From: Acidobacteria bacterium RBG_13_68_16 | GTDB lineage: Bacteria; Acidobacteriota; Thermoanaerobaculia; Thermoanaerobaculales; Thermoanaerobaculaceae | Direction of reading: 5' to 3' | NCBI GenBank assembly: GCA_001766905.1 | Contig: MEKI01000056.1 | Coordinates: forward strand, 20,611 to 70,404 | DNA: 49,794 nt | In this document: one piece after another, positions 8,950 to 37,686 of the stretch | How positions within the stretch are numbered: the first letter of the stretch is position 1 | Layout: each line of letters opens with the position of its first letter | Position numbers and translations under genes: made by a program | The notes under the pieces: model-generated | Seen by the model: only the letters and a program-made list of their open reading frames with translations | Told to the model about the DNA's origin: nothing | Database searches by the model: none

Positions 8950-9748
8950 CAGGGTGCCGGAGAGAATCATGCCCGGTGAAATCGCCTGGGAGATGTACTA
9001 CTTGGAGCACCGACAGCGCTACGAGTTCGCTGCCGAGCGCTGCAGGGGGCTGGCGGTGCTCGATGTTGCCTCTGGTGTGGGCTATGGGTCCGAGTTACTG
9101 ATGCATGCCCGGGCAAGGGCCGCAGTCGCCGCGGATCTCGCTTTAGACTGCATCGCAATCGGCCGGCGACTGTTCTCCGCGAACGGTGTCTTCTTTGCTT
9201 GTGCCAACGCTGTGGAACTTCCCTTCAAGGACGGGAGCTTCGACGCGGTGGTCTCCTTCGAGACCATAGAACACCTCCACCAAGTCCGTGACTTTGTTAC
9301 TGCGGTCTGTCGGGTTCTTCGCCCCCAGGGACTCTTCATTTGCAGTTCTCCCAACAAAGAATTCACTATGCGGCGCGAAAAGCCTTCCAATCCCCACCAC
9401 CAGATTGAGATGACGTACGACGAACTCGCCGAGACCATCAGGAGCGGCGGGTTTGAGATCACGGAGTTGTTCTCGCAGTCCCATTCGCCCTCGTACAGCC
9501 GCTTCTTGGACCTCCTTGATCAACTCGGACGTGTGGAAGAAGTCATCTGCTATAGCAGGTTTCTCGGAATTGAGAACGCGCTACGAAAGCTCCTTGGACG
9601 CAAAGTCTGGTCACTCCGACCCTCCTCCCAACTCCTGTCAAGAGCAGTGCACGGGGATTTTGTGATCGAGCCCCTCGCCAAGCCGTCGTCTCGCTCTGTG
9701 ACCTACATCGTCTGTGCCAGAAAATGCAGTACGGACATCACCGGTTGA
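8942..9748 (+). CDS. Class I SAM-dependent methyltransferase
   Basis: VLDVASGVGYGSELL motif; DGSFDAVVSFETIEHLHQV. GTG start at 8942 overlaps the stop of the ATPase (8949); the ORF track start at 8894 lies inside the ATPase gene. Confidence 0.85.
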   Translation: MTSRVPERIMPGEIAWEMYYLEHRQRYEFAAERCRGLAVLDVASGVGYGSELLMHARARAAVAADLALDCIAIGRRLFSANGVFFACANAVELPFKDGSFDAVVSFETIEHLHQVRDFVTAVCRVLRPQGLFICSSPNKEFTMRREKPSNPHHQIEMTYDELAETIRSGGFEITELFSQSHSPSYSRFLDLLDQLGRVEEVICYSRFLGIENALRKLLGRKVWSLRPSSQLLSRAVHGDFVIEPLAKPSSRSVTYIVCARKCSTDITG

Positions 9749-9753
9749 GCGAA

Positions 9754-10938
9754 ATGAACATCTGCCTCGTGAGCCATGAGTTCCCACCGGAAACAGGTTG
9801 GGGAGGTGTCGCAACATACAGCTTCGAGTTGTCCAGGGCCCTTGCGCAAGCAGGCCACCGTGTATGGGTAGTCACGTGCACCAGCGGGAAAGAGAAGCTG
9901 TTTGTGGACTCCGGAGTGGAAATACACCACCTTAGGGTCTGGCGGTCATGGGACCACCTAAGGGTGCTTTGGAGACTTCCCGCGGCATGGCCCAGTTTTG
10001 CGTGGCGGGCAGCCTGTCGCGTACAACAGATTCACCGCACGGTCGGCCTCGATATTGTGGAGGCCGCGGAGTACGGTGCGGACAGTCTCTTCGTCAAGGT
10101 GTTCCCGCGGCGACCCCGGTTGGTCGTGCGTCTTCATTCGCCATCGGTCCTGCTGAACCGGTTTACCGGTGTGATCCCCACCTGGCAGCACCGTTTAGCC
10201 TACCTGAGAGAGAGGCTGGCAATTGCCGGTGCCGACGCCCTCTCGGCACCAGCGCGTGCCATTGTGGACGAGGCCTGTTCGTGGTTGCCGATCATTCGCA
10301 CGAAACGTTTGTGCGTCGTTCCGAACGGGATCACGGCCTCGGACTGGGACGAAGGTCCGGGTCGTGCGGAACCACCTGAGGTGCTTTACGTCGGCCGCTT
10401 GGAACGCCGCAAAGGGATCGACCTGGTCGAACGGGTTATACCGACGGTGCTCAATGAGTTTCCGAATGTCACCTTCCGCTTCGTCGGCGACGACCGCTTC
10501 GACGAGCACCAGGTTTCGTGGCGCACTCGTCTCACTCGTGCAGCCCCCGAGCAAGCAAGGTCCCGTCTCGCATTTGATCATGTTCCACGAGAACACCTTC
10601 CCTCGCTGTATCAGCGGGCAACGTTGAGCATCATCCCGTCGCCCTGGGAGAACTTCCCGTACGTTGCGCTGGAGGCAATGGCAACCGGTTGCCCCGTGAT
10701 CGCGACCAATGTCGGCGCTTTGCCGGAGATCGTGACACACGGGAGGACTGGTCTCCTGGTCCCGCCGGGAGACCATGAGGCGTTCTCGCGGGCAATTGCC
10801 ACGCTGCTGCGTAGCCCAAGACAACTGGACAGCATGCGTGTTGAGGCCCGCCGATGGATCCGGGAGAAGTTCAGTTGGGAGCGGGTCCTCCCCCTGATGG
10901 TCGGGTTCTACCGGGCAGTTTGTGATGAGGCAAGCTGA
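9754..10938 (+). CDS. Glycosyltransferase family 4
   Basis: MNICLVSHEFPPETGWGGVATYSFELSRALAQAGHRVWVVT; C-terminal SPWENFPYVALEAMATGCPVIATNVGALPEIV. Confidence 0.93.
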   Translation: MNICLVSHEFPPETGWGGVATYSFELSRALAQAGHRVWVVTCTSGKEKLFVDSGVEIHHLRVWRSWDHLRVLWRLPAAWPSFAWRAACRVQQIHRTVGLDIVEAAEYGADSLFVKVFPRRPRLVVRLHSPSVLLNRFTGVIPTWQHRLAYLRERLAIAGADALSAPARAIVDEACSWLPIIRTKRLCVVPNGITASDWDEGPGRAEPPEVLYVGRLERRKGIDLVERVIPTVLNEFPNVTFRFVGDDRFDEHQVSWRTRLTRAAPEQARSRLAFDHVPREHLPSLYQRATLSIIPSPWENFPYVALEAMATGCPVIATNVGALPEIVTHGRTGLLVPPGDHEAFSRAIATLLRSPRQLDSMRVEARRWIREKFSWERVLPLMVGFYRAVCDEAS

Positions 10939-12040
10939 TCCCCGCCACCGGGATGCGCGTCGTGGTGTCACAGTCGCCATCTGCTGTCACAACTCGGCGG
11001 ATCGTATCCGCATGTGCCTCAAACACCTGCTAGCACAACGCGGTGACCCCGCACTTCCTTGGGAAGCGCTTCTAGTGGACAACGCTTCAACCGACGCCAC
11101 AGCCGAGGTCGCCCGTTCCGCTTGGCCCACGGACTTCCAGGTGCCGCTCCGGATCGTGCACGAGTCGGCGCTAGGCCTGAGCAACGCGCGTTGGCGCGGT
11201 TTCCTTGAGGCGTGCTACCAGGTGGTGAGTTTCATTGACGATGACAACTGGGTCTCGCCCGACTGGCTACGAACCGCCCACGAGGTCTTTGACAGGGATC
11301 CCGAGTTGGCCGCATGCGGGGGTTTCAACGAAGTGGCGTTTGACGGTCGCCCGCCCGCTTGGTTCGACGCCTACAAATGGTCTTTTGCAGTGGGACCGCA
11401 GGGTCCCTCACCCGACACTGCGGACACCAATGCACCGTCGTTGTGGGGCGCTGGCCTAACCGTCCGTCTCGCGGCATGGCACGGGCTTCAGCAGTGTGGC
11501 TTTGTCCCCCTTCTCCGTGATCGTACTGGCTCCGCACTCAGTGGAGCCGGCGACACAGAGCTCTGTCTCGCGCTACGCCTGGCCGGATGGCGGTTGCGCT
11601 ACGAACCCCGCCTCCGGCTCACGCACTTCCTGCCAAGCTGGCGGCTCCATTGGAGTTACCTTCGGCGCCTACACCGGGCTTTTGGGGCGAGCACTGTTGG
11701 AACTGACCCCTACTACGCCGCCCTGGAGCCGATTCCGCCCAAAGGCAGGGCATGGGTCCGCCACACTTGGGAGTGGCAGTCGGCCGTGGTGCTCAAGCAC
11801 TTCGTCACTCACCCGAAGACGTTGTTCCGCCTGTTCTCAAGGGCAGGAGAGGGAAATCCCATTGCACTCTCAGCAGAAGGACAGGTAGGTCGGCTGCGCG
11901 CTCTCTTGAAGACGCGTGGGGAATACAACGCCTCCTTCGTGCGGGTCCGCGGCGCGGCATGGGCCGCGCGTGACGACTCCTCCGACCGCGAACAGCACCG
12001 CAAGCCGGCACGATCCGATGGCATCACTAAGGTAGAGTGA
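10922..12040 (+). CDS. Glycosyltransferase family 2
   Basis: VTVAICCHNSADRIRMCLKHLL, LVDNASTDAT, FIDDDNWVSPDWL (DXD-type motif). Confidence 0.9.
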   Translation: MMRQADPRHRDARRGVTVAICCHNSADRIRMCLKHLLAQRGDPALPWEALLVDNASTDATAEVARSAWPTDFQVPLRIVHESALGLSNARWRGFLEACYQVVSFIDDDNWVSPDWLRTAHEVFDRDPELAACGGFNEVAFDGRPPAWFDAYKWSFAVGPQGPSPDTADTNAPSLWGAGLTVRLAAWHGLQQCGFVPLLRDRTGSALSGAGDTELCLALRLAGWRLRYEPRLRLTHFLPSWRLHWSYLRRLHRAFGASTVGTDPYYAALEPIPPKGRAWVRHTWEWQSAVVLKHFVTHPKTLFRLFSRAGEGNPIALSAEGQVGRLRALLKTRGEYNASFVRVRGAAWAARDDSSDREQHRKPARSDGITKVE

Positions 12041-13128
12041 GGGCGGTGAGGGTCACTTTCCTCTTGCCGGGGCCAGCCTCGGTGCCGGTAGGCGGGATCC
12101 GGGTCGCCTACCGCTTGGCCGAGGGCCTTGCGCTGCGCGGTCATGATGTCCGCATTCTGCACCCCACGGGCTGGGTCGGGTCGGACACCGCCCACCGGAG
12201 TTCTCTCCTGCGTGGACTTAGCTGGGTCAAGCACTGGATTCTGCGTGACTACCGCCCTGCGACGTGGCTCCCAATTCCGCAAGGAGTGCGTCTGCGCTTG
12301 ATCCCTTCGATCTCTCCCAAATGGGTGGGTCAGAGTGACGCCATTGTTGCCACCGGATGGAGGCTGTTCTCCGCGATCGCGACCCTGCCGCCGAACGCCG
12401 GCGCAAAGGTTGCACTGGTCCAGCACCTCGATGCCTGGGACGGGTCCCGCGAGGATGCGGTCGCGGCCTGGCTACTTCCCATGCACAAGGTTGCCGTTGC
12501 GCACTGGATGGCCAGGGAGCTGCACGCCATCGGTCAGGAGTGCGATGTGGTCCCCAACGCCGTCGACCAGGACCTGTTCTTCCTCGAGACGCCGCCCGAG
12601 GAGCGCCGGGCACCGACGGTGGCCTTCATGGGCCACGATCAGCCCTGGAAAGGAACCGCTTTTGCCCTCCAGGCAGTGGAGAAGGTGCGGGAACAGATCC
12701 CTGGGCTCGAGGTCCAAATGTTCTGCACACGCCCGCTGCCGGCAGGCAGGCCAATCTGGATCCGCGAAAGGCTCAACCCTCCGCCCCGCGAACTGCGGGG
12801 CATCTACAACTGGGCTCAAGTGTTCCTCGCCCCCTCGCTGACCGAGGGCTGGGACCTGCCGGCGTGCGAGGCGATGGCGTGTGGAGCCGCGCTTGTGGCC
12901 AGTGACATTCCGGCGCGGGCAGAGTACGCCGAGAATCAGGGGAGCGCCCTCCTAACACCACCGGGAGACGTGCCCGCAATGGCAGAGGCGGCGTTGCGCC
13001 TCCTAGCGGATGATGGCCTGCGCGTGCGCCTTGCCCGGCGCGGTTTGGAGCGGGTAGGCGAGTTGACCTGGCCGCGATCGGCTGAACTCTTTGAGTTAGC
13101 CTTGACTCGGGCAGTGGCACGCCTATGA
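12037..13128 (+). CDS. Glycosyltransferase family 4
   Basis: PVGGIRVAYRLAEGLALRGHDVRILHP; SLTEGWDLPACEAMACGAALVASD; GTGA overlap with upstream gene. Confidence 0.88.
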   Translation: MRAVRVTFLLPGPASVPVGGIRVAYRLAEGLALRGHDVRILHPTGWVGSDTAHRSSLLRGLSWVKHWILRDYRPATWLPIPQGVRLRLIPSISPKWVGQSDAIVATGWRLFSAIATLPPNAGAKVALVQHLDAWDGSREDAVAAWLLPMHKVAVAHWMARELHAIGQECDVVPNAVDQDLFFLETPPEERRAPTVAFMGHDQPWKGTAFALQAVEKVREQIPGLEVQMFCTRPLPAGRPIWIRERLNPPPRELRGIYNWAQVFLAPSLTEGWDLPACEAMACGAALVASDIPARAEYAENQGSALLTPPGDVPAMAEAALRLLADDGLRVRLARRGLERVGELTWPRSAELFELALTRAVARL

Positions 13129-13174
13129 CCCCGGTTCTTCCCGTCGACAAGACAGGACCGCGGCCACCAAACCA

Positions 13175-13987
13175 ATGGGACTACCCATGGTGCTGATCCA
13201 CCGACTCGCGCACGCGCTGGAGGTTCTTCGGGAGAATCGCTTTGGGATGCCCCTGGCCGAACGCCTGCGGCTCGGGCGTCTGCCGCGCTACTTGCCGACC
13301 ACCACCACGTTCCTCAAAAGGGAACTCACTCTAGTCGATGCCAACAGCTTCCTCGTGGGCGTGGAGGAGATCTTCCGCAACCGACTGTACGAGTTCCCAG
13401 CCTCGAGGCCCAACCCTCTCATCATCGACTGCGGGGCCAACATCGGCCTCAGCTGCCTGTTCTTCAAAGAGCTATACCCGGCCAGTCGGATCATCGCATT
13501 TGAGCCCGATCAGGCGGTTTTCGCCGCACTCGAGAGCAACATTGGCGCTCGAGGCTTCTCGGGAATCGAACTCCACAACCGTGCCGTGTGGGTCCGCGAA
13601 GGACTGGTGAGCTTTTGGAGCGAAGGGGCGTATGGCGGGAGGATTGCCAAGCCTTGCGACGAGCAGGGCCTCGTCCAGGTTTCCTCGGTGCGCCTCAAGG
13701 ACTACCTTGGTGGTGAAGTTGACTTTCTGAAGCTTGACATCGAGGGCGCAGAGGTCGAGGTAGTCGCGGACTGCGCAGACTTGTTGGGAAACGTTGAGCG
13801 CATGTTCTTGGAATACCACTCCTTTGTCGATGAGGAACAGAGGCTCGATGCCCTGCTGGGCATGCTTCGTACGGCCGGATTCCGGTACCACGTGAAGGAG
13901 GCCCTAACTGCCGAGGTCCCTTTCAGAGCGCGGCCACTGTCCTGCGGCATGGACCTCCAGCTGAACATATTTGCCTTCCGAACGTGA
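13175..13987 (+). CDS. FkbM family methyltransferase
   Basis: LIIDCGANIGLSCLFFKELYPASRIIAFEPD; VDFLKLDIEGAEVEVV, the FkbM pattern. Confidence 0.9.
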   Translation: MGLPMVLIHRLAHALEVLRENRFGMPLAERLRLGRLPRYLPTTTTFLKRELTLVDANSFLVGVEEIFRNRLYEFPASRPNPLIIDCGANIGLSCLFFKELYPASRIIAFEPDQAVFAALESNIGARGFSGIELHNRAVWVREGLVSFWSEGAYGGRIAKPCDEQGLVQVSSVRLKDYLGGEVDFLKLDIEGAEVEVVADCADLLGNVERMFLEYHSFVDEEQRLDALLGMLRTAGFRYHVKEALTAEVPFRARPLSCGMDLQLNIFAFRT

Positions 13988-14085
13988 GGGTTCACTACAT
14001 GTGCTCGCCAGCGGTCCATTCGGTGCTGCTGCTGGCAGAAAGCTACAAAACACGCTAGATTTCTGCGAGTGAGGAGGGCCGCCGC

Positions 14086-15768
14086 GTGAAGCTCGTCGAG
14101 TGCGTCCCCAACATCTCGGAAGGGCGGCGGCCGGAGGTGTACGAGGCGGCGGCGAAGGCCGCGGCGTCCGTCCCGGGGGTCACGGTGCTCAACGTGGACC
14201 CCGGCGCGGAGACCAACCGCACGGTCATCACGTTCGTCGGCGAGCCCGAGGCGGTGCTCGAGGGCGCGTTCCGGCTGGCCGTGAAGGCCGTCGAGCTCAT
14301 CGACATGAGCGCCCACCACGGGGCCCACCCCCGGATGGGGGCGGTGGACGTCGTTCCCTTCGTGCCGATCTCCGGCGTCACGATGGACGAATGTGTGGCG
14401 CTCGCGCGTCGCCTCGGCCAACGCGTGGGTAGCGAGTTGGGCATCCCCGTCTACCTCTACGAGTCCGCGGCCTCGAACCCCGGCCGCCGAAACCTGGCGG
14501 ACGTCCGCGCCGGCGAGTACGAGGGACTCGCCGAGAAGCTCAAGGACCGCGCCTGGAAGCCGGACTTCGGTCCCTCCTCCCCTGTTGCGCGCTCGGGGGC
14601 AACCGTAATCGGCGCCCGGAAGTTCCTCGTCGCTTTCAACGTCAACCTCAACACGCTGGACAAGCGCCTTGCCACGCGGGTCGCCCTCGACGTGCGCGAG
14701 AAGGGTCGCATGCGGCGGGACGAGCACGGCCAGCCGGTCCTGGACGACGCGGGCAACCCGCTGTGGGATCCCGGCCTCCTCAGGTCCGTGAAGGCGGTGG
14801 GGTGGGTGATCCCGGAGTTCGGATGTGCCCAGATCTCGATGAACCTCACGGACCTGGACGTCACACCGCTGCACGTGGCGTTCGACACTTGCGACGAACG
14901 CGCCCGCGAGCGCGGGCTGCGGGTGACCGGCTCCGAGTTGGTCGGCCTCGTGCCCAAGTCGGCACTGGTGGCGGCCGGTCGGTACTACCTCAGGCAGATG
15001 GGCCGTTCCGCCGGCGTGCCCGAGGGCTCCCTCATCCACGTGGCGATGCGAACCCTCGGCCTTTCCGAGGTAAAGGCGTTCGACCCCGCCGTGCGCGTCA
15101 TCGAGTATCGTCTGGAAACCTCGGGGCGCCTGGTCTCGATGGCGCTGCAGGCTTTCACGGACGAGCTCTCCACCGACTCGCCCGCACCCGGCGGCGGTTC
15201 GGTCGCCGCGCTGGCAGGTGCGCTGGGTGCCGCCCTTGCCGCCATGGTTGCCAGCCTCTCGCACGCCAAAAAGGGCTTCGAGGCGCATCGGGACAGGCTC
15301 GACGCGATCGCGGTGCGCGGGCAGGAGATCAAGGACCGCATGCTGGCGGCGGTGGATGCCGACACCGAGGCGTTCGACTCCCTCCTCGAGGCCATGCGTC
15401 TGCCCAAGGGAACGCCCGAGGAGCAGACGGCGCGCGAGCGCGCGATCGCCGAGGCTACGGTCGCTGCCATCGAGGTCCCACTCGGCGTCCTGGAGGCATG
15501 CCCGGAGGTGATCGAGCTCTGCCGCGAGGTGGCCCGCATCGGCCTCGAGGCCTCCCGCTCTGACGCGGGCACCGGGGCCCAGGTGGCGCGCGCCTCGGCC
15601 GCGGGTGCCTATCAAAACGTGTGCACCAACCTGCCCGGGCTCACCGACCCGGTCCGGGCGAAGGCGCTCCTCGCCCGGGCCGACGGCGCGTGGGACGAGG
15701 TCCGCTCGTCACACGCCCTGGCCGAAAGGGAGATCCTCGAGGAGTTGCGGAAGGCCGCCCGGCAGTAG
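14086..15768 (+). CDS. ftcD: Bifunctional glutamate formimidoyltransferase / formimidoyltetrahydrofolate cyclodeaminase
   Basis: N-terminal KLVECVPNISEGRRPEVYEA and AHHGAHPRMGAVDVVPFVP; C-terminal cyclodeaminase TDSPAPGGGSVAALAGALGAALAAMV in one ORF. Confidence 0.95.
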   Translation: MKLVECVPNISEGRRPEVYEAAAKAAASVPGVTVLNVDPGAETNRTVITFVGEPEAVLEGAFRLAVKAVELIDMSAHHGAHPRMGAVDVVPFVPISGVTMDECVALARRLGQRVGSELGIPVYLYESAASNPGRRNLADVRAGEYEGLAEKLKDRAWKPDFGPSSPVARSGATVIGARKFLVAFNVNLNTLDKRLATRVALDVREKGRMRRDEHGQPVLDDAGNPLWDPGLLRSVKAVGWVIPEFGCAQISMNLTDLDVTPLHVAFDTCDERARERGLRVTGSELVGLVPKSALVAAGRYYLRQMGRSAGVPEGSLIHVAMRTLGLSEVKAFDPAVRVIEYRLETSGRLVSMALQAFTDELSTDSPAPGGGSVAALAGALGAALAAMVASLSHAKKGFEAHRDRLDAIAVRGQEIKDRMLAAVDADTEAFDSLLEAMRLPKGTPEEQTARERAIAEATVAAIEVPLGVLEACPEVIELCREVARIGLEASRSDAGTGAQVARASAAGAYQNVCTNLPGLTDPVRAKALLARADGAWDEVRSSHALAEREILEELRKAARQ

Positions 15769-15803
15769 TCCCTCCTTGCCGCTGGCGCGGGTGGCCGGGT
15801 GAC

Positions 15804-16025
15804 GTCTTGTTTTCCACTCCGTGGAGGTCTTGTTTTGCCCGGCGGGTGTGCGGCCGCTCGGCGCTTGTTCGCCCACGCTCGTGGCGCGCCGAGACTCCTC
15901 CGGCCACGACCCAGCAGTGTGTCCCGGGGCGAGGCCCCTCGGCGTTCGCATACAGCCGCGTCCCCGAGACCCCACCCCGGGTCCGCACGCTGGGGACCCC
16001 GTGGCCTCCGGAGGCATGGCCGCTC
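15804..16025 (+). repeat. Copy A of a diverged GC-rich intergenic repeat (hairpin/T-tract head plus GC-rich body)
   Basis: Aligns by eye in the opposite orientation with 16345..16120, including GCGGCCGCTCGG, TCCCGGGGCGAGGCCCCTCGGCGTTCGC, AGCCGCG, GACCCCACC and CTCCGG..G.ATGGC blocks. Confidence 0.65.
15814..15836 (+). terminator. Weak candidate terminator after ftcD
   Basis: CCAC-TCC-GTGG stem followed by AGGTCTTGTTTT; the 10-mer GTCTTGTTTT also occurs at 15804..15813. Confidence 0.4.
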
Positions 16026-16119
16026 ACACCCGCCAGGCGAATTGAAAGCCCCCCACCCAACGGGCCTCGATGGGAGTTGAGCAGGCCGCTGGCAGCTCAG
16101 GGGGTGGCGGTGAAATCCG

Positions 16120-16345
16120 CCCCGCGGGCGGAAGGAGCCATCGCGCCGGAGCCTGCGGGAACCGAGCGGGCGTCTCGCGGTGGGGTGTCGCTGGCGCGGC
16201 TTCAGGCGAACAGCGAGGGGCCCCGCCGCGGGACGTCCCTGCTCGGTCGCACGCGCAGGCGTGCCGGAGGGCTGGGCTCAACGCCCGGCCCGAGCGGCCG
16301 CTCCGAGCCCGCGGAGCAAAAAAATTGGTGGTGCGGGGCACCACC
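16120..16345 (-). repeat. Copy B of the diverged intergenic repeat, inverted relative to copy A
   Basis: Minus-strand sequence ...TTTTTTTGCTCCGCGGGCTCGGAGCGGCCGCTCGG...CGACCGAGCAGGGACGTCCCGCGGCGGGGCCCCTCGCTGTTCGC...AAGCCGCG...GACACCCCACC...GGCTCCGGCGCGATGGC parallels copy A. Confidence 0.65.
16318..16345 (-). terminator. Strong intrinsic terminator for the minus-strand etf transcript
   Basis: Minus strand GGTGGTGC-CCC-GCACCACC (8-bp perfect stem) followed by AATTTTTTT. Confidence 0.85.
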
Positions 16346-16563
16346 GGAAGGAGCGGCCAGCTTCCACCTTGCTCGACCACTCTCAAACGGCACCCCCCCC
16401 AACGCAATCCCACGAAAGTGGGATATCCGGACGGCAGGCAGGGGGCGGGGGCCGAAAGCCTTGAGTTAAGGACACTAACTCCGGACGCCCAAACCACGAG
16501 GTACAAGGGCCCGGGAGCTGCCCGGGCACTCATGCATCACGCCTCGTCCCTCGTGCGTGCTTT

Positions 16564-17538
16564 CTACACCTCGGCCTTGAGCTTCTTGATCTCCTCGATG
16601 AGTGGGGGGACGACCTGGAAGAGGTCGCCCACGATCCCGTAGTCCGCGACCTTGAAGATCGGCGCCTCGGGGTCCTTGTTGATCGCCACGATGAGCTTCG
16701 AGGATGACATCCCGGCCAGGTGCTGGATCGCCCCCGAGATGCCGCACGCGATGTAGAGCGAGGGAGAAACCACCTTGCCGGTCTGGCCGACCTGGTGGGC
16801 GTGGTCGATCCACCCGGCATCCACCACGGCACGGGAGGCACCGACCGCAGCGCCGAGCAGCTTGGCGAGATCGCGGATGAGGGCGAAGTTCTCCGGTCCC
16901 TTGATGCCCCGGCCCCCGCTCACGATGACGTCCGCCTCGGCGACGTCCAGCTCTCCGCCCTCCTTCGCCAGGATCTCCCTGACGACAGCGCGGATATCGC
17001 CGGCCACCTGAGGAAGCGCTTCGACCTCTGCTTTTCCCTCACCGATGCCGGCGGGAAAAACGTTGGGACGCAGCGTCACGACCACCGGCTTGCCGGCCCC
17101 GTCCGCCGTGGCGAGCGCCTTCCCGGAGTACACGGGACGCGTGGCGACCACCGCGCCCCCTTCGACCTGCACCCGGACCACGTCGGCCAGGCAACCCCAC
17201 CCGAGGCGCGCGGCAACGCGTCCTGAGAGGTCGCGCCCGAGTGCGGTGGCCGCCATGAAGAGCGCCACGGGTGAGGACTTCTCCACCGCCGCCCGGACCG
17301 CCGCGGCATACCCCTCGGTGGAGTAGCGCGCGAGCTTCTCCTCGTCCGCCACGAACACCTTGCCGGCGCCGTACTTCCCGAGCTCTGCGGCCTTGGTGCC
17401 GATCCCGTGGCCCACCAGCACGGCGTTGACCGCGAGCCCTGCTCCGGATGCCAGCCGCTTGGCCTCCGAGAGCGCCTCCAGGGACGCCTTGCGGAGGTTG
17501 CCGTTGCGCTGCTCGATGAAAACCAGAATGCCCGCCAT
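16564..17538 (-). CDS. etfA: Electron transfer flavoprotein, alpha subunit
   Basis: C-terminal [72 protein letters not shown] is the ETF-alpha FAD-binding signature. Confidence 0.97.
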
Positions 17539-17547
17539 GGTCGTCTC

Positions 17548-18342
17548 CTAGATGGCCTTCGCCTGCTCGCGCAGGAGGCGAGCCAGTTCCCGCGCGGCAC
17601 CCGCCGGGTCCTCGTCGCCCTTCAGGACGGTGCCGCCGCTCTTGGCGGGCGGCAGCTCGAGCGCCTTCCAGCGGCAGGTCGCCTCAGCCGCCGCCAGCGC
17701 CCCCTCGTCGAGCCCGAGATCCGCAACGGCAAAGGTCTGGATGGTCACCTTCTTCGAGGCCATGATCCCCTTGAGGGACGGGTAGCGCGGCTCGTTGAGG
17801 CCCTTGTGCGCCGTCACGACGCACGGCGCCGGAGCCTCCACGACCTCGGTGCCGCCCTCGATCTCCCGGTGCGCGGTGAGCTTGCCGTCGCCGATCTCGA
17901 GCTTGACGACACCCGTCACGTGAGGGATATCCAGGAGTTCCGCCACCATCGCCCCCACGAGGCTGTTGTCGCTGCCGACGCCCTTGATCCCGGCAAAGAA
18001 GATGTCGAACGGCCCGACCTTGCGGATCGCGGCGGCGAGCACGCGCGCGATCGCGAGCGCGTCGCCGAAGGTCCCATCGCCGCCCTTCACGTGCACGGCT
18101 GCGTCCGCGCCCCGGGCAAGGCATTCCCGCAGACCCTGCTGGGCGCGCTCCGGTCCGTACGTAAGCACGGTGACCGCGCCCCCGCGGGCCTCCTTGAGCC
18201 GGATCGCCTCCTCGAGCGCGTACTCGTCGTACGGCGAGACGATCCACTTGATGTCCGTCTCGTCGATGCGATTGCTCGCGCCCGGGACCTTGATCACCGA
18301 TGCGGTGTCGGGAACGTGCGCCATCAGCACACAGCTCTTCAT
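17548..18342 (-). CDS. etfB: Electron transfer flavoprotein, beta subunit
   Basis: NRIDETDIKWIVSPYDEYALEEAIRLKEA; DIFFAGIKGVGSDNSLVGAMVAELL; adjacent to etfA. Confidence 0.96.
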   Translation of the reverse strand: MKSCVLMAHVPDTASVIKVPGASNRIDETDIKWIVSPYDEYALEEAIRLKEARGGAVTVLTYGPERAQQGLRECLARGADAAVHVKGGDGTFGDALAIARVLAAAIRKVGPFDIFFAGIKGVGSDNSLVGAMVAELLDIPHVTGVVKLEIGDGKLTAHREIEGGTEVVEAPAPCVVTAHKGLNEPRYPSLKGIMASKKVTIQTFAVADLGLDEGALAAAEATCRWKALELPPAKSGGTVLKGDEDPAGAARELARLLREQAKAI

Positions 18343-18425
18343 CGGTCGTCCTCCTCAGCCGCCGGCGGGCGGCGCGTGAACGGAGACCTGCGTGCCGTCC
18401 CGGCGAGTCCGCGCAAGCCCGCGCC

Positions 18426-33003: not shown

Positions 33004-33876
33004 GTGGGTGAGCTTCTTGCCCTTCTGACCGCGCTCATCTGGGCGGCGGCGGTGATCCTCCTCAAGAGATCGGGGGAGACCATACCGCCGTTCGCGCTCA
33101 ACCTCTTCCGCGTGACGGTCTCGATCGTGCTGCTGGTTCCCACCGCCGCCCTCGTCGGCCAGGCGAGCGTCTCGTCCGCGTCGCTCTCGGACATCGGCCT
33201 GCTGGTCGCCAGTGGGGCGATCGGGGTTGCGGTCTCGGATACTCTCTTCCACGCTAGCCTCAACCGCATCGGAGCCGGCGTTTCCGCGATCATCGACAGC
33301 CTCTACTCGCCCCTTACCGTGCTGCTGGCGTTCCTGTTTTTGAACGAGCGGCTCTCCGCGCTTCAGCTCGTTGGGATGGCCCTGGTGCTCGGCGGCGTCT
33401 TCGCGGCCGCCCGCCACGAACCGCCCCACGGGGTGGCGCACCGTCAGGTCGCCGTGGGCGTGGCGTTGGGGGTGGTCGCAATGCTCGCACTGGCGGTGGC
33501 GATCGTGATCGCAAAACCGGTGCTCGACCGCTCGCCGTTGATGTGGGCGGTCACGGTGCGCCAGGTGGGGTGCCTCGCTGTGATGCTCCCGATCGCACTG
33601 TTTTCGCGCCGCCGTGCCCAGACCCTGGGCGCGTTGCGGCCCTCCGCAGTCTGGCTCCATGCGCTTCCCGGTGCGGTGCTGGGATCGTACCTCGGCCTGA
33701 TGTGCTGGATCGGGGGGTTGAAGTACACCAAGGTCGGCGTTGCCGCGATCCTGAACCAGTCGAGCACGATCTACATCCTGATCCTGGCCACGATCTTCCT
33801 GAAGGAGCCTTTCACCCGCCGCAAGTTGGTCGCCTCACTGGTCGCCCTCGCCGGCATCGTCCTCGTCACGGTCTAG
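33004..33876 (+). CDS. EamA/DMT family transporter
   Basis: Ten-TM DMT pattern with two halves; LYSPLTVLLAFLFLNERLSALQLVGMALVLGGV and NQSSTIYILILATIFLKEPFTRRKLVASLVALAGIVLV. Confidence 0.92.
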   Translation: MGELLALLTALIWAAAVILLKRSGETIPPFALNLFRVTVSIVLLVPTAALVGQASVSSASLSDIGLLVASGAIGVAVSDTLFHASLNRIGAGVSAIIDSLYSPLTVLLAFLFLNERLSALQLVGMALVLGGVFAAARHEPPHGVAHRQVAVGVALGVVAMLALAVAIVIAKPVLDRSPLMWAVTVRQVGCLAVMLPIALFSRRRAQTLGALRPSAVWLHALPGAVLGSYLGLMCWIGGLKYTKVGVAAILNQSSTIYILILATIFLKEPFTRRKLVASLVALAGIVLVTV

Positions 33877-33896
33877 GGCGCCGCCAGTCTCCGACC
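33874..33896 (+). repeat. 24-nt stop-codon-associated repeat, copy 2 (1-nt deletion)
   Basis: TAGGGCGCCGCCAGTCTCCGACC; begins at the stop codon of the EamA gene. Confidence 0.65.
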
Positions 33897-33910
33897 GTCT
33901 GCGGCGTCAG

Positions 33911-33985
33911 ACTCCGGCGCGGCCGCCTCGCCTTCCTTGCATCCGGCCGAATCCGGGCGCCGCGGGCTACGCGCCGTTCGCTGAG
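33911..33985 (+). repeat. Left arm of 75-bp imperfect inverted repeat flanking the orphan ORF
   Basis: ACTCCGGCGCGGCCGCCTCGCCTTCCTTGCATCCGGCCGAATCCGGGCGCCGCGGGCTACGCGCCGTTCGCTGAG aligns with reverse complement of 35055..35129. Confidence 0.6.
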
Positions 33986-34080
33986 GCCGTGAATAAGCAG
34001 TTTCGCGGCTACGCGCATTGCGCGCGGGCCCTGCTCGGGGTGCCAAAACCGGACGGCGTCGCTCACGCGGCTCACACCGA

Positions 34081-34995
34081 TCACACAGGAAAAATAACCG
34101 GCCGGTAGATGCGCGCGCCTTTGAGTGGGAAGACTTCGCACGCGGAAAGCACCGCGTCTGCGTCCCTGAACAGGAAAGAATTGTTGATGAGGAGCAATGA
34201 ACGCGTGATTTCGCCCTCTTGATAAGCCTTCTCCGCGACGAAACCGAGAATGTGGATCCTCTCGCGAACAGCGCTGGCAGCAGGCGAAGGGTTGGTCGGC
34301 TCAAAGAGCCCCTTTATGGGCCTTCGGGTTCCGGGTAGGCACAGCGCAAGGTCGCGCTCCTCCTCTGGAAGCGCGCTGACGCCAACGCTCATCTGCACGT
34401 ATTCAAACCACTCTCCGCCTCCAGCGCCGCCGAAACCACGCATGTCAGCGACGATTGCGTGGTACGCAACATTCGGCAGCGGAAACTTCGTTGGCTTCCC
34501 ATCGAGCCAGGCCTTCGCCGCGATCTTGCTCTCCGCGGTGATCATCTCCTCCTGGAGGCTGTTTCCTTTGCTGCTCGAGTCCGACGTGAGGAGATGGCCG
34601 AACATCTGAGCGCCGGGCGCGAATTCATACTCGGTAGTGGCTTCCTTCACTGCTCCCGTGGTTCGTAGGGAGACCAGCTCAATCAGCCACTCAGGAGGCT
34701 GAGTCACGCGGAAATCGACAGTTGACTGACCAACGCCGGCGGCGAACTCGTACTGAGCGATTGCCCCTGAACGCTCGAGCTCGTCGGCGAACCGGAGCTC
34801 AAAGAGGTCGCTGAGATTCTCCGGCGTTGGTGCTGTGGCGTTGCGCATCTGCTCCGGCAGCGAACCCCGAATGCGGGCGTGGTCAAGCAGCGGCCGTGCC
34901 CAGGCAACGCCCCTCAATCGTTCAGCGACCTGTGCCGTGTACTCCAACTCGGCAGCGGACACGCAGTCCCAATAGGGGTGTGCCTCACGGACCAC
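34081..34995 (-). CDS. Orphan protein, possible PD-(D/E)XK nuclease-like fold
   Basis: 304-aa ORF, GTG start; noticeably less GC-rich than neighbours. LFELRFADELERSGAIAQYEFAAGVGQSTVDFRVTQPPEWLIELVSL resembles E...D..ExL nuclease-like core; no recognised family. Confidence 0.6.
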   Translation of the reverse strand: MVREAHPYWDCVSAAELEYTAQVAERLRGVAWARPLLDHARIRGSLPEQMRNATAPTPENLSDLFELRFADELERSGAIAQYEFAAGVGQSTVDFRVTQPPEWLIELVSLRTTGAVKEATTEYEFAPGAQMFGHLLTSDSSSKGNSLQEEMITAESKIAAKAWLDGKPTKFPLPNVAYHAIVADMRGFGGAGGGEWFEYVQMSVGVSALPEEERDLALCLPGTRRPIKGLFEPTNPSPAASAVRERIHILGFVAEKAYQEGEITRSLLLINNSFLFRDADAVLSACEVFPLKGARIYRPVIFPV

Positions 34996-35054
34996 TGACC
35001 GAACCCCAAACCTCGCATGTCATTGTCGCTCAGCTTCCGCCGCCGGTTGCAGGG

Positions 35055-35129
35055 CTGAGGCGAAGCGCGTGTAGCCGCGCCGCCGCCGTTGGGCCTATCG
35101 CAAGGCGCGCGAGCGGCCCGCGCCGGAGT
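35055..35129 (-). repeat. Right arm of 75-bp imperfect inverted repeat flanking the orphan ORF
   Basis: Minus strand ACTCCGGCGCGGGCCGCTCGCGCGCCTTGCGATAGGCCCAACGGCGGCGGCGCGGCTACACGCGCTTCGCCTCAG. Confidence 0.6.
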
Positions 35130-35145
35130 GTAGCCGGAGGCTACA
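35129..35145. repeat. Perfect short hairpin in right flank
   Basis: TGTAGCC-GGA-GGCTACA. Confidence 0.7.
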
Positions 35146-35181
35146 TGAGGACGCGAGGCCGCGAAGCGCAACACAGCGAGA

Positions 35182-35205
35182 GGTCCGACGCCGACGGCGC
35201 CCCTA
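35182..35205 (-). repeat. 24-nt stop-codon-associated repeat, copy 3
   Basis: Minus strand TAGGGGCGCCGTCGGCGTCGGACC, 20/24 identical to copy 1; begins at the stop codon of 35203..37686. Confidence 0.6.
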
Positions 35206-37686
35206 CCTCCGAGCGAGCGGTCGGAGGAGGAAGAGTTCGACCGTGGGCCTCCGGGGTCCCGGCGTCGCGAGCGGGAACCCGACGCTGCCCTGCAGCAGCG
35301 TGCCCCACGGTCCCGGCACGGACAGGCCGAGCCCCACGCCCGAGAGCGGTCGCGCCGAGTACCGCGAGCGCGGGTCGTGAGCCCACCCGAGGCCGAGCTC
35401 GGCCTGGGCGCGCACCCGTGACGACAGCGGAAACGCCAGCGACGCCCTGGTGACGGCGAGGCGATCGGGCACCACCTGGTTGGATGCGATTCCCACGATC
35501 CGCACGCCGCCGAACCGCGCGGGTGAGGGCGCGGAAAACCGGTCGAGGCTCGACCCCGCCAAAACCTCGCCGTCCAGGTGCAGCCTCGCGAGGGGGAACA
35601 GCGACCTTTCCCACACCACCGCCAGCCGTCCCAGCCGCCACGATCTCTGCGGTCGCTCGAGGCCATCGAGCCCCCACGCCTGCCAGTCGTTCCTCCAACC
35701 GGCCTGGCCGGAGAGGATCAGGCTCGCATCACCGACCGCCGCGCTGCATTCCACCTTCGCCACACCCTCGAAGGTGTCGGAGGGCAGCACGAAACCCCGC
35801 GACGTGGAGCCGGTGCGGCCGAAGTCCAACCGGTTCACACCCGCCTCGACGAGGACGCGCGCGAACCCGACGTTGGTGGCAACGCCGGCGCCGACGCTCT
35901 GACGCCGCACCTCGATCTCCTCGCCCTTCACCTCGTGTCCCTGGGTGTAGACGGCGCTGGCGAACGGGATGAGCTGGACGAACGCCCGCGCCGAGAGCTC
36001 CACGCTGCCGCGCCGCGCGGACCATGCCCCGTCGTTGACCACGCCGGCGATCAGCAGGCGGAGCTGCTCGTCGCGTTTGCGGAAGTTGAAGTCCTGGATC
36101 TGCAACCCGCCGAACGGCACCGGAAAGGAGAGCCCGGGATCGTACACGACCCCCCCGATGAGGAAGCGCTGCGATTCCCTAGGGAGAGATCCCACGATGC
36201 GACCATCGTGGCCGTCGGGCACGAGCGCTACGATCCCGCCGGGGGCGTCGCGCAGCATGCGGTGGGTCCTTCCATAGGCCGAGCTCCGCTCGGCCGCGAA
36301 GTCGGCAGGGTTGAGCACGACGTTGGTCAGCACCAGCTCGCGGTGCACGGTGGCGGTGCCGCCGAACGCCGAGAGGAAGTCGTGGGCGGTCACTCGCGAG
36401 GGCAACCAGAGCAGCTCGCCGCCAAGCTCCGTGGGATCGTAGACGCTGACCGACCGAGTGGCGCGCACCTCGCCGGGCAGGCTTTCGGCGGCCTCCTCCA
36501 GCTCGACGAGACCGAAGCTCGCTGCGTCAATGAACGCGGTGCCCCGCCGCAGCGTGCCTCCCGACTGCCCGCTCGCGAAGGTGAGCGCAAAGCATCTCCG
36601 CCCCTGGCGCTCCTCGAGCCCGCGCAGCTCGTAGCGGTACGACGGCTCGAGACGCAGGGAGAGTGGCGGTGCCGGTGGCCGTCTGGGCTCCAGAAACGGG
36701 AGGTCGGGCAGCGCGTCCGGGTCCCACGAGACCCCGTCAACCGACGCCCGCGCCAGCTCCCAGTCCGTTCCCACCCCGCGCTCCCAGAATGCCGCCCCCG
36801 CGAGCGCCACCTCGAAGCTGCGCGCAAGCTGCTCCACCCACACGCGCACCAGCAGCCGCTGGTCGGCTCGCCACTGGGGGACCAACTGCTCCTGGCGTGC
36901 GGCCGCGCGCTGGTGGCGGGCCAGCACCTCCGCCGCCGACGGCAGGCGTTCGCCGCTCACCTCCACCCTCTCGAAGGCCCCCTCCCCGGCGGGCCGCAGC
37001 GCCACCAGCACGCCCCCGTGCGGCAACGCCGGCACCGCGACCACCGTCGAATCGCCGACGCGCCGCAGCGCGAGCGGCAGGGAGCCGCCGGCGAGCAGCA
37101 CGGCCCGGCCATACCAGGAACTGGGGAGTGCGACGTCCCCGCCGGCAAAGCCGCGCGGCAGCCCCACCACGGTGGCGAGATCGGCACCGCGCAGCGCGGT
37201 GGGAACCTCACCCCCGGCGCCGCGTGCGGCCTGTGGCTCCGGTAGGAGGCCGGCGAGCTCGTCCTCCCAGGCGGTGTCGGGCTCCCCGATCAGGACGGCG
37301 CTTGCCCCCGCGGCCAGCGCGGCTACCGCCTGAGCGGGGTCCGAGGCTGCGACGACCAGCGCGACGCCCGGCACCTGCACCAGTGCGCCGGGGGGAGCGA
37401 CGGCAGGGCAGAAACCGTCGAGGTACGGCAGCACATTGGCGGGTGGCACGGTGCTTCCCACGGCGATGAGCAGCGCTCGTCGCGAGGACAGGGCCACCGC
37501 GGTCTCCAGCCAGTGCTGGTCGGGCTTACCGGGTGGCGGGGGCAACTCCAGCAGGTATCCGGCGGCATCGTCCTCAGGGGGCGTCGCGTCAGCACGCACC
37601 AAAACCCAACGCGAAGCGCCGAACCTCGGGTCGGCGATTACAGGCGGGAGCGCCGGCGCAGCGAGGAGGAGAACTGTGGCCAGCAT
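35203..37686 (-). CDS. Predicted secreted/outer-membrane protein, C-terminal beta-barrel-like
   Basis: N-terminal signal-like MLATVLLLAAPALPPVIA; C-terminal half of alternating amphipathic strands (RAQAELGLGWAHDPRSRYSARPLSGVGLGLSVPGPWGTLLQGSVGFPL). Confidence 0.55.
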   Translation of the reverse strand: MLATVLLLAAPALPPVIADPRFGASRWVLVRADATPPEDDAAGYLLELPPPPGKPDQHWLETAVALSSRRALLIAVGSTVPPANVLPYLDGFCPAVAPPGALVQVPGVALVVAASDPAQAVAALAAGASAVLIGEPDTAWEDELAGLLPEPQAARGAGGEVPTALRGADLATVVGLPRGFAGGDVALPSSWYGRAVLLAGGSLPLALRRVGDSTVVAVPALPHGGVLVALRPAGEGAFERVEVSGERLPSAAEVLARHQRAAARQEQLVPQWRADQRLLVRVWVEQLARSFEVALAGAAFWERGVGTDWELARASVDGVSWDPDALPDLPFLEPRRPPAPPLSLRLEPSYRYELRGLEERQGRRCFALTFASGQSGGTLRRGTAFIDAASFGLVELEEAAESLPGEVRATRSVSVYDPTELGGELLWLPSRVTAHDFLSAFGGTATVHRELVLTNVVLNPADFAAERSSAYGRTHRMLRDAPGGIVALVPDGHDGRIVGSLPRESQRFLIGGVVYDPGLSFPVPFGGLQIQDFNFRKRDEQLRLLIAGVVNDGAWSARRGSVELSARAFVQLIPFASAVYTQGHEVKGEEIEVRRQSVGAGVATNVGFARVLVEAGVNRLDFGRTGSTSRGFVLPSDTFEGVAKVECSAAVGDASLILSGQAGWRNDWQAWGLDGLERPQRSWRLGRLAVVWERSLFPLARLHLDGEVLAGSSLDRFSAPSPARFGGVRIVGIASNQVVPDRLAVTRASLAFPLSSRVRAQAELGLGWAHDPRSRYSARPLSGVGLGLSVPGPWGTLLQGSVGFPLATPGPRRPTVELFLLRPLARR

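Follow-up and report, generated by a model that had tools for sequence, protein, structure and literature searches.

The two inverted arms that enclose an orphan gene in the window (the whole stretch of 49,794 nucleotides analysed here, from Acidobacteria bacterium RBG_13_68_16) are very probably two separate copies of a genus-specific, dispersed, REP-like long hairpin, each placed just past its own gene's stop codon, and the two facing each other because the genes converge. The element is multi-copy, is an imperfect hairpin of 125 nt with strong covariation, and lies mostly within 20 nt behind a stop codon on the strand of that gene. A limited literature search found no description of such a hairpin family, which is apparently new to the literature.

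The arms in the window and the genes that carry them

An EamA-type transporter gene on the plus strand and a gene for an outer-membrane-like protein on the minus strand converge in the window, so that their hairpin copies face each other across the orphan gene. The features of the locus, in coordinates of the window, are these:

33004..33876, plus strand: EamA-type transporter gene, the left convergent neighbour and a genus core gene (Pfam EamA, E 7.8e-40; orthologs in 8 genus genomes)
33878..33975, plus strand: left copy of the hairpin element, with ~38 nt deleted inside (covariance model 66.8 bits, E 1.6e-9; alignment)
34003..34034, plus strand: partial second copy of the element tail (CGCGGCTACGCGC...GGGCCCTGC), seen as direct repeat D2 and inverted repeat I2
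34081..34995, minus strand: orphan gene of 304 aa with 60.8% GC, this lineage's cargo (coding score 25, codon-usage caller)
35066..35200, minus strand: right copy of the hairpin element, full length, with the hairpin at 35077-35200 and the tail at 35066-35076 (covariance model 137.8 bits, E 9.4e-24)
35203..37686, minus strand: outer-membrane-like protein gene, 827 aa, the right convergent neighbour and a genus core gene (orthologs of 63-82% identity in genus genomes)

The left copy begins 1 nt past the EamA stop codon (33876) and includes most of the left arm. Similarly, the right copy begins 2 nt past the stop codon of the outer-membrane-like gene (35203) and includes most of the right arm; it folds at -82.7 kcal/mol (z -5.0). 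The partial tail at 34003-34034 appears to be a relic of the element. The label of the outer-membrane-like protein is that of the initial annotation, and a Pfam search assigned the protein to no family.

The initial annotation had described the arms, at 33911-33985 on the plus strand and 35129-35055 on the minus strand, as 75-bp imperfect inverted repeats around a less GC-rich reading frame. The inverted arrangement was recovered by a repeat finder (71% complementarity over 55 nt), and the likeness of the arms is above chance, a gapped alignment scoring 49 against a mean of 20.6 (sd 3.6, maximum 39) for 5,000 dinucleotide shuffles. The enclosed frame at 34081-34995 on the minus strand is indeed less GC-rich than the window, at 60.8% against 69.2%. 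While the 75-bp arms exist, they are not complete units, both being sub-segments of a longer repeat that occurs genome-wide: BLAST of the arms against their own genome returned the same sequence on ten other contigs, with E-values from 1e-49 to 1e-4. Only 75 bp were visible in the window because the left copy has lost those ~38 nt internally, and the inverted layout arises because two genes, each with its own copy, converge.

It had also been suggested that the arms are the ends of a non-autonomous transposon or composite, with the orphan as its cargo. In line with this, facing copies flank cargo at several loci, and the orphan looks foreign, with its low GC content and lack of relatives. However, copies stand singly and directly behind the stop codons of many other genes throughout the genome, with their orientation set by the upstream gene; they remain where there is no cargo, as in the genus genome G008, and both gene ends carry them even where the cargo in between is of a very different sort. 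Nor is there a target-site duplication, flanking direct repeats measuring 4.39 compared with 4.25 for shuffled partners, i.e. no longer. Hence the transposon reading is largely refuted and highly improbable. The same evidence bears on MITEs and other small non-autonomous repeats, which the element resembles in being short, multi-copy, palindromic and non-coding and in having a copy number that differs between species, but from which it departs in the missing target-site duplication, in a place and orientation dictated by the upstream gene and in positions common to different species.

Structure, placement and distribution of the hairpin

The aligned genome copies define a dispersed repeat made of a ~125-nt hairpin and an 11-nt tail, which reads, in order, GCGCCGCCG at the start, an apical hairpin (TGTAGCC-TCC-GGCTACA), CGGCGGCGC at the end and then the tail, GGCTACACGCC. 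One long imperfect hairpin was predicted, with z from -3.4 to -5.8 in the five copies folded, and the consensus has 38-45 pairs. In a MAFFT alignment of 13 copies (A1) made without use of structure, double compensatory changes were seen in 23 of 41 pairs, and the covariation score was 0.360, compared with 0.124 +/- 0.014 after shuffling and at most 0.076 in slid registers; the folding and the covariance model were built from these same copies. Counts over 64 rows, which are biased towards the model because the alignment was fitted to the covariance model built from A1, include pairs split near-evenly between states (GC 31 and TA 30; CG 31 and GC 28). Linkage tracks pairing and not distance: the normalised mutual information is 0.87 for paired positions that lie 20-119 nt from each other, as against 0.22 between one pair and another. 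The positions of mismatches are conserved as well: C14.A111 in 61/61 copies, A17.C108 in 59/61 and A55.C73 in 57/61, and it would be expected that a simple arm-to-arm correction had removed them. A search with the covariance models of Rfam 15 gave no match to the element up to E 5.

In 58 of 61 copies the more stable fold (-85.6 vs -74.7 kcal/mol) is that of the strand opposite to the mRNA of the upstream gene, and on that strand the three C.A oppositions kept among copies become G.U wobbles. Taken together, these two properties do not favour a role on the mRNA strand. Among the pairs common to both folds, G.U is slightly above C.A on the mRNA strand (28 vs 17); choosing between RNA and DNA by such wobble counts had a mixed outcome and was not decisive.

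With respect to placement, a same-strand gene lies upstream of 61 of 65 copies, with genes called by a simple codon-usage caller. The distance to the stop codon is at most 20 nt in 49 of the 61 copies for which it was measured (median 6 nt), as against 2% for random positions, and the next gene is convergent in 37/64. It could be argued from this placement, from the enrichment before convergent neighbours and from the great stability of the hairpin that the element is simply a large family of transcription terminators, and that its spread and the variable gap in the window are otherwise meaningless. The element does resemble intrinsic terminators in being a stable GC-rich hairpin past the stop codon. 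Yet it is several times longer than these, and far longer than termination requires, and a T-tract is missing: none of 61 copies has one beside the hairpin on either side, four consecutive T occur in 0/61 within the 32 nt that follow the hairpin, and a search for a terminator-like site at the elements found none. The element is thus not a textbook terminator. A terminator would also leave the fixed mismatches and the exchange of subfamilies (see below) unexplained, and the closest relative of the window's genome, G005, has just 2 matches to the covariance model. We therefore consider a terminator family unlikely as the whole explanation.

The covariance model found 15 matches in the window's own genome, and all nine genus genomes have matches, from 2 to at least 53 each; these numbers are minima, coming from mostly fragmented draft assemblies and MAGs in which repeats break the assembly, with 55 candidates at most scored per genome. 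The search gave no match in eight other members of the family, and weak matches of 47-56 bits (L129, L130, L139, L140) in G038 and G050, from other families of the class, are probably distant relatives of the element. A core pattern was matched among GTDB genomes almost solely in Acidobacteriota MAGs (labelled Acidobacteria, Terriglobia or Thermoanaerobaculaceae) and in four Paenibacillus contigs; among 297 genomes of the phylum, just the two that belong to the genus had more than one match to a core pattern, and viral contigs had none. The Paenibacillus matches were not counted as members, since they have only the apical hairpin region in common with the element (22-27 bits). Hairpins of Paenibacillus timonensis and P. 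rubinfantis (L225, L258, L291, L295) have the same apex, CTCACGTAGCCTCCGGCTACGCTCC, and little else alike; this likeness could reflect either convergence or a wider superfamily.

Sequence exchange among copies and likeness to REP sequences

When orthologous stop codons were compared in up to eight species, the element was found at the same place in most of them, often as another outer-stem subfamily, and empty or relic sites were also present. Copies at the same locus are 75.9% identical, compared with 76.7% for unrelated pairs, and the closest copy is the one at the same locus in only 4 of 40 cases. For example, the two closest species differ more in the element at their AsnS locus (78% identity) than in its flanks (81-89%), and a stem there has changed on both of its arms together. 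The position of the element thus persists while its sequence switches between subfamilies. The exchange is frequent yet incomplete, because the copies at the FabG, CyoC and AMP-ligase loci of close species stay 95-98% identical.

Several further observations were made on individual copies. Internally deleted relics in G005 (L379) and G004 (L101 3430-3473) still fold into short hairpins, e.g. GCACCGCAGAT...ATCTGCGGTGC, as if the deletions had respected the fold. In many copies, a second repeat of ~115 bp (CGGGCGGGGGGTCCCGCGGCCGC...) is inserted at about one point (L100 2273-2370, L102 5130-5225, L050 3520-3645, L330, L333, L336, L361, L362), and a palindromic MITE-like repeat with the ends GGGGCCRGGYATCACACTTTG is inserted in others (L102 4919-5035, L336, L355). 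The copy at L334 is interrupted by a sequence that resembles, by eye, a transposase gene of the IS630 type, and that at L339 stops at a similar point. Another GC-rich palindrome (GGCCGCGCGGCCTGCGGCCGGCGCGGCC) lies ~50 nt 3' of many copies (L151-L159, L331, L332), so that two families of hairpins may be joined in the 3' flank.

Among known repeats, the REP, BIME and REPIN sequences come closest: these too are dispersed, extragenic and palindromic, with conserved stem irregularities and subfamilies, are hit by insertions, and lie near the 3' ends of genes, for the most part where the neighbouring genes converge or run in one direction. A possible further likeness, seen in 44 of 61 copies and not strict, is a GTAG just 5' of the hairpin on the strand that folds better: opposite to the mRNA, GTAG is followed by two bases and then the hairpin. 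It can be hypothesized from this that the element belongs to the REPs proper and owes its spread to a Y1 transposase (RAYT, TnpA_REP) that works on single-stranded DNA. The better fold of the strand opposite the mRNA would fit, Y1_Tnp genes are present in nine of nine genus genomes, and recognition of REPs in E. coli needs conserved stem irregularities (PMC8266576). Nevertheless, copies adjoin only 1 of 30 Y1_Tnp loci, which is at chance level and about what copy density leads one to expect, and Y1 genes are equally present in relatives free of the element. The looseness of the GTAG speaks against this as well, as does the stem of ~50 bp, compared with 5-13 bp in the catalogued GTAG families (PMC3733652). 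A RAYT-driven family is, in our view, distinctly unlikely.

Unlike REPs, whose unit is 20-40 bp with a stem of 5-13 bp (PMC3733652), the element is one hairpin of ~125 nt; it is essentially confined to one acidobacterial genus, and its position is conserved between species while its sequence is exchanged. The size of its unit and its lack of linkage to a RAYT gene set it apart from REPs, just as it is not an intrinsic terminator by the T-tract and not an attC site by the R boxes and the array (see below). The element seems to be functioning most like a REP: its placement and structure are observed, and it may have a role at the 3' end. REPs lie similarly close to 3' ends (PMC3733652), ribosomes are reported to stall at those no more than 15 nt away from a stop codon (PMC12306157), and REPs attract insertions (PMC1525189). 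The hairpin would then act at mRNA 3' ends, by end protection or by reducing read-through between convergent genes, and copies would be homogenised by recombination among themselves and not each by a new transposition. We advance this combination of 3'-end action and homogenisation tentatively, as quite possible.

The variable gap and its cargo

The EamA and outer-membrane genes are convergent across the genus, and what lies between them differs from species to species. The gap is without a gene in the closest relative G005 (195 bp), in G001 (106 bp) and in G008, where its 504 bp contain two facing copies of the element. In G004 it holds a different gene, of 464 aa; a module of ERCC4, PIN-like and XRE-M78 genes stands at the gap in G007 and, beside EamA, in G006 (the PIN-like assignment was made by eye, Pfam giving no match). 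Complete copies or remnants of the element are found at the gene ends in most relatives. A second convergent locus also has facing copies, with content that differs among G001, G004 and G008. The gap between facing copies thus varies in content among species, some having genes of their own there and others no gene, and the orphan is cargo of the window's lineage at such a gap. This bears out the initial suggestion of a gene-exchange hotspot, whose counter-case, full synteny across the relatives and not one empty site, is not what the genomes show.

The orphan itself was found once, and hairpin copies occur without it and singly elsewhere. The protein had no relative in Pfam, NCBIfam, PADLOC, PHROGs, plasmids, viral contigs, GTDB peptide patterns or the phylum; matches within the phylum at E 0.001-0.009 and the best PDB match, a FliG fragment at E 0.006, were judged to be chance. 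AlphaFold2 run on the single sequence gave a pLDDT of 34.

At the second locus of G004, the facing elements enclose two genes of cassette-like type, with an attC-like site behind each. This arrangement (L150 2793-2859 and 3610-3730, and upstream of 4397) lies well away from every integrase gene seen, the two genes being integron cassettes at a secondary chromosomal site. In G006, the gap at the second locus encodes a relative (43%) of a protein from the integron array of G001. Four genus genomes have integron integrase genes; one of the four is the window's own genome, with a partial intI where contig C99 begins. Integrase genes together with attC sites (GCCTAAC...GTTAGGC, 97-131 bp) were seen at L420 (G001:C33, ~9298-18400), L421, L422 and L423, and L420 also has an array of low-GC small genes.

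With integrases in the genus and cassettes at one hotspot, it might be proposed that the element serves the resident integrons as an attC-like site and that the orphan is an integron cassette. Like attC, the element is a long imperfect hairpin behind a stop codon, its structure is kept above its sequence and its bottom strand, opposite the mRNA, folds better. But the genuine attC sites of the genus differ in sequence, the covariance model finds no element in the four intI loci, and the ends of the hairpin (GCGCCGCCG/CGGCGGCGC) lack the R boxes RYYYAAC and GTTRRRY, the latter occurring anywhere in just 21 of 61 copies. The element also stands outside arrays and behind core genes, and a search for attC near the window's orphan found none. 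Identity with the resident attC is thereby refuted, and the proposal as a whole is scarcely credible.

It could also be asked if the facing copies actively promote the insertion or exchange of genes, either because mobile elements are drawn to them or through the homology that they provide between strains, or if the gap is neutral. An active role would be in keeping with the alternative cargo at both convergent loci with facing copies, with the insertions that have struck the copies themselves and with REPs being known insertion targets (PMC1525189); against it, simple recombination between inverted copies cannot excise the cargo. We regard such a role as somewhat doubtful. In the neutral account, which we hold to be moderately probable, the gap between convergent, hairpin-closed genes would be a landing place where cargo accumulates and where catalysis of insertion by the hairpin would not be required; insertions may be tolerated in convergent gaps even where the elements play no part. 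A more complex pathway could be envisioned, though it is very unlikely, where the hairpin is single-stranded DNA folded opposite the mRNA, recombination machinery carries copies of it from one stop codon to another, where they supplant the old ones in place, and facing pairs serve as docking sites for foreign genes, integron cassettes included.

The family reveals what short REPs hardly can, namely stop-codon positions that are common to species while the sequence is swapped among subfamilies and the pairing and fixed mismatches are kept. It makes testable which strand is selected, and whether such elements spread by transposing or by taking the place of copies already there. Moreover, it links 3'-end hairpins to the gaps where orphan genes come and go.
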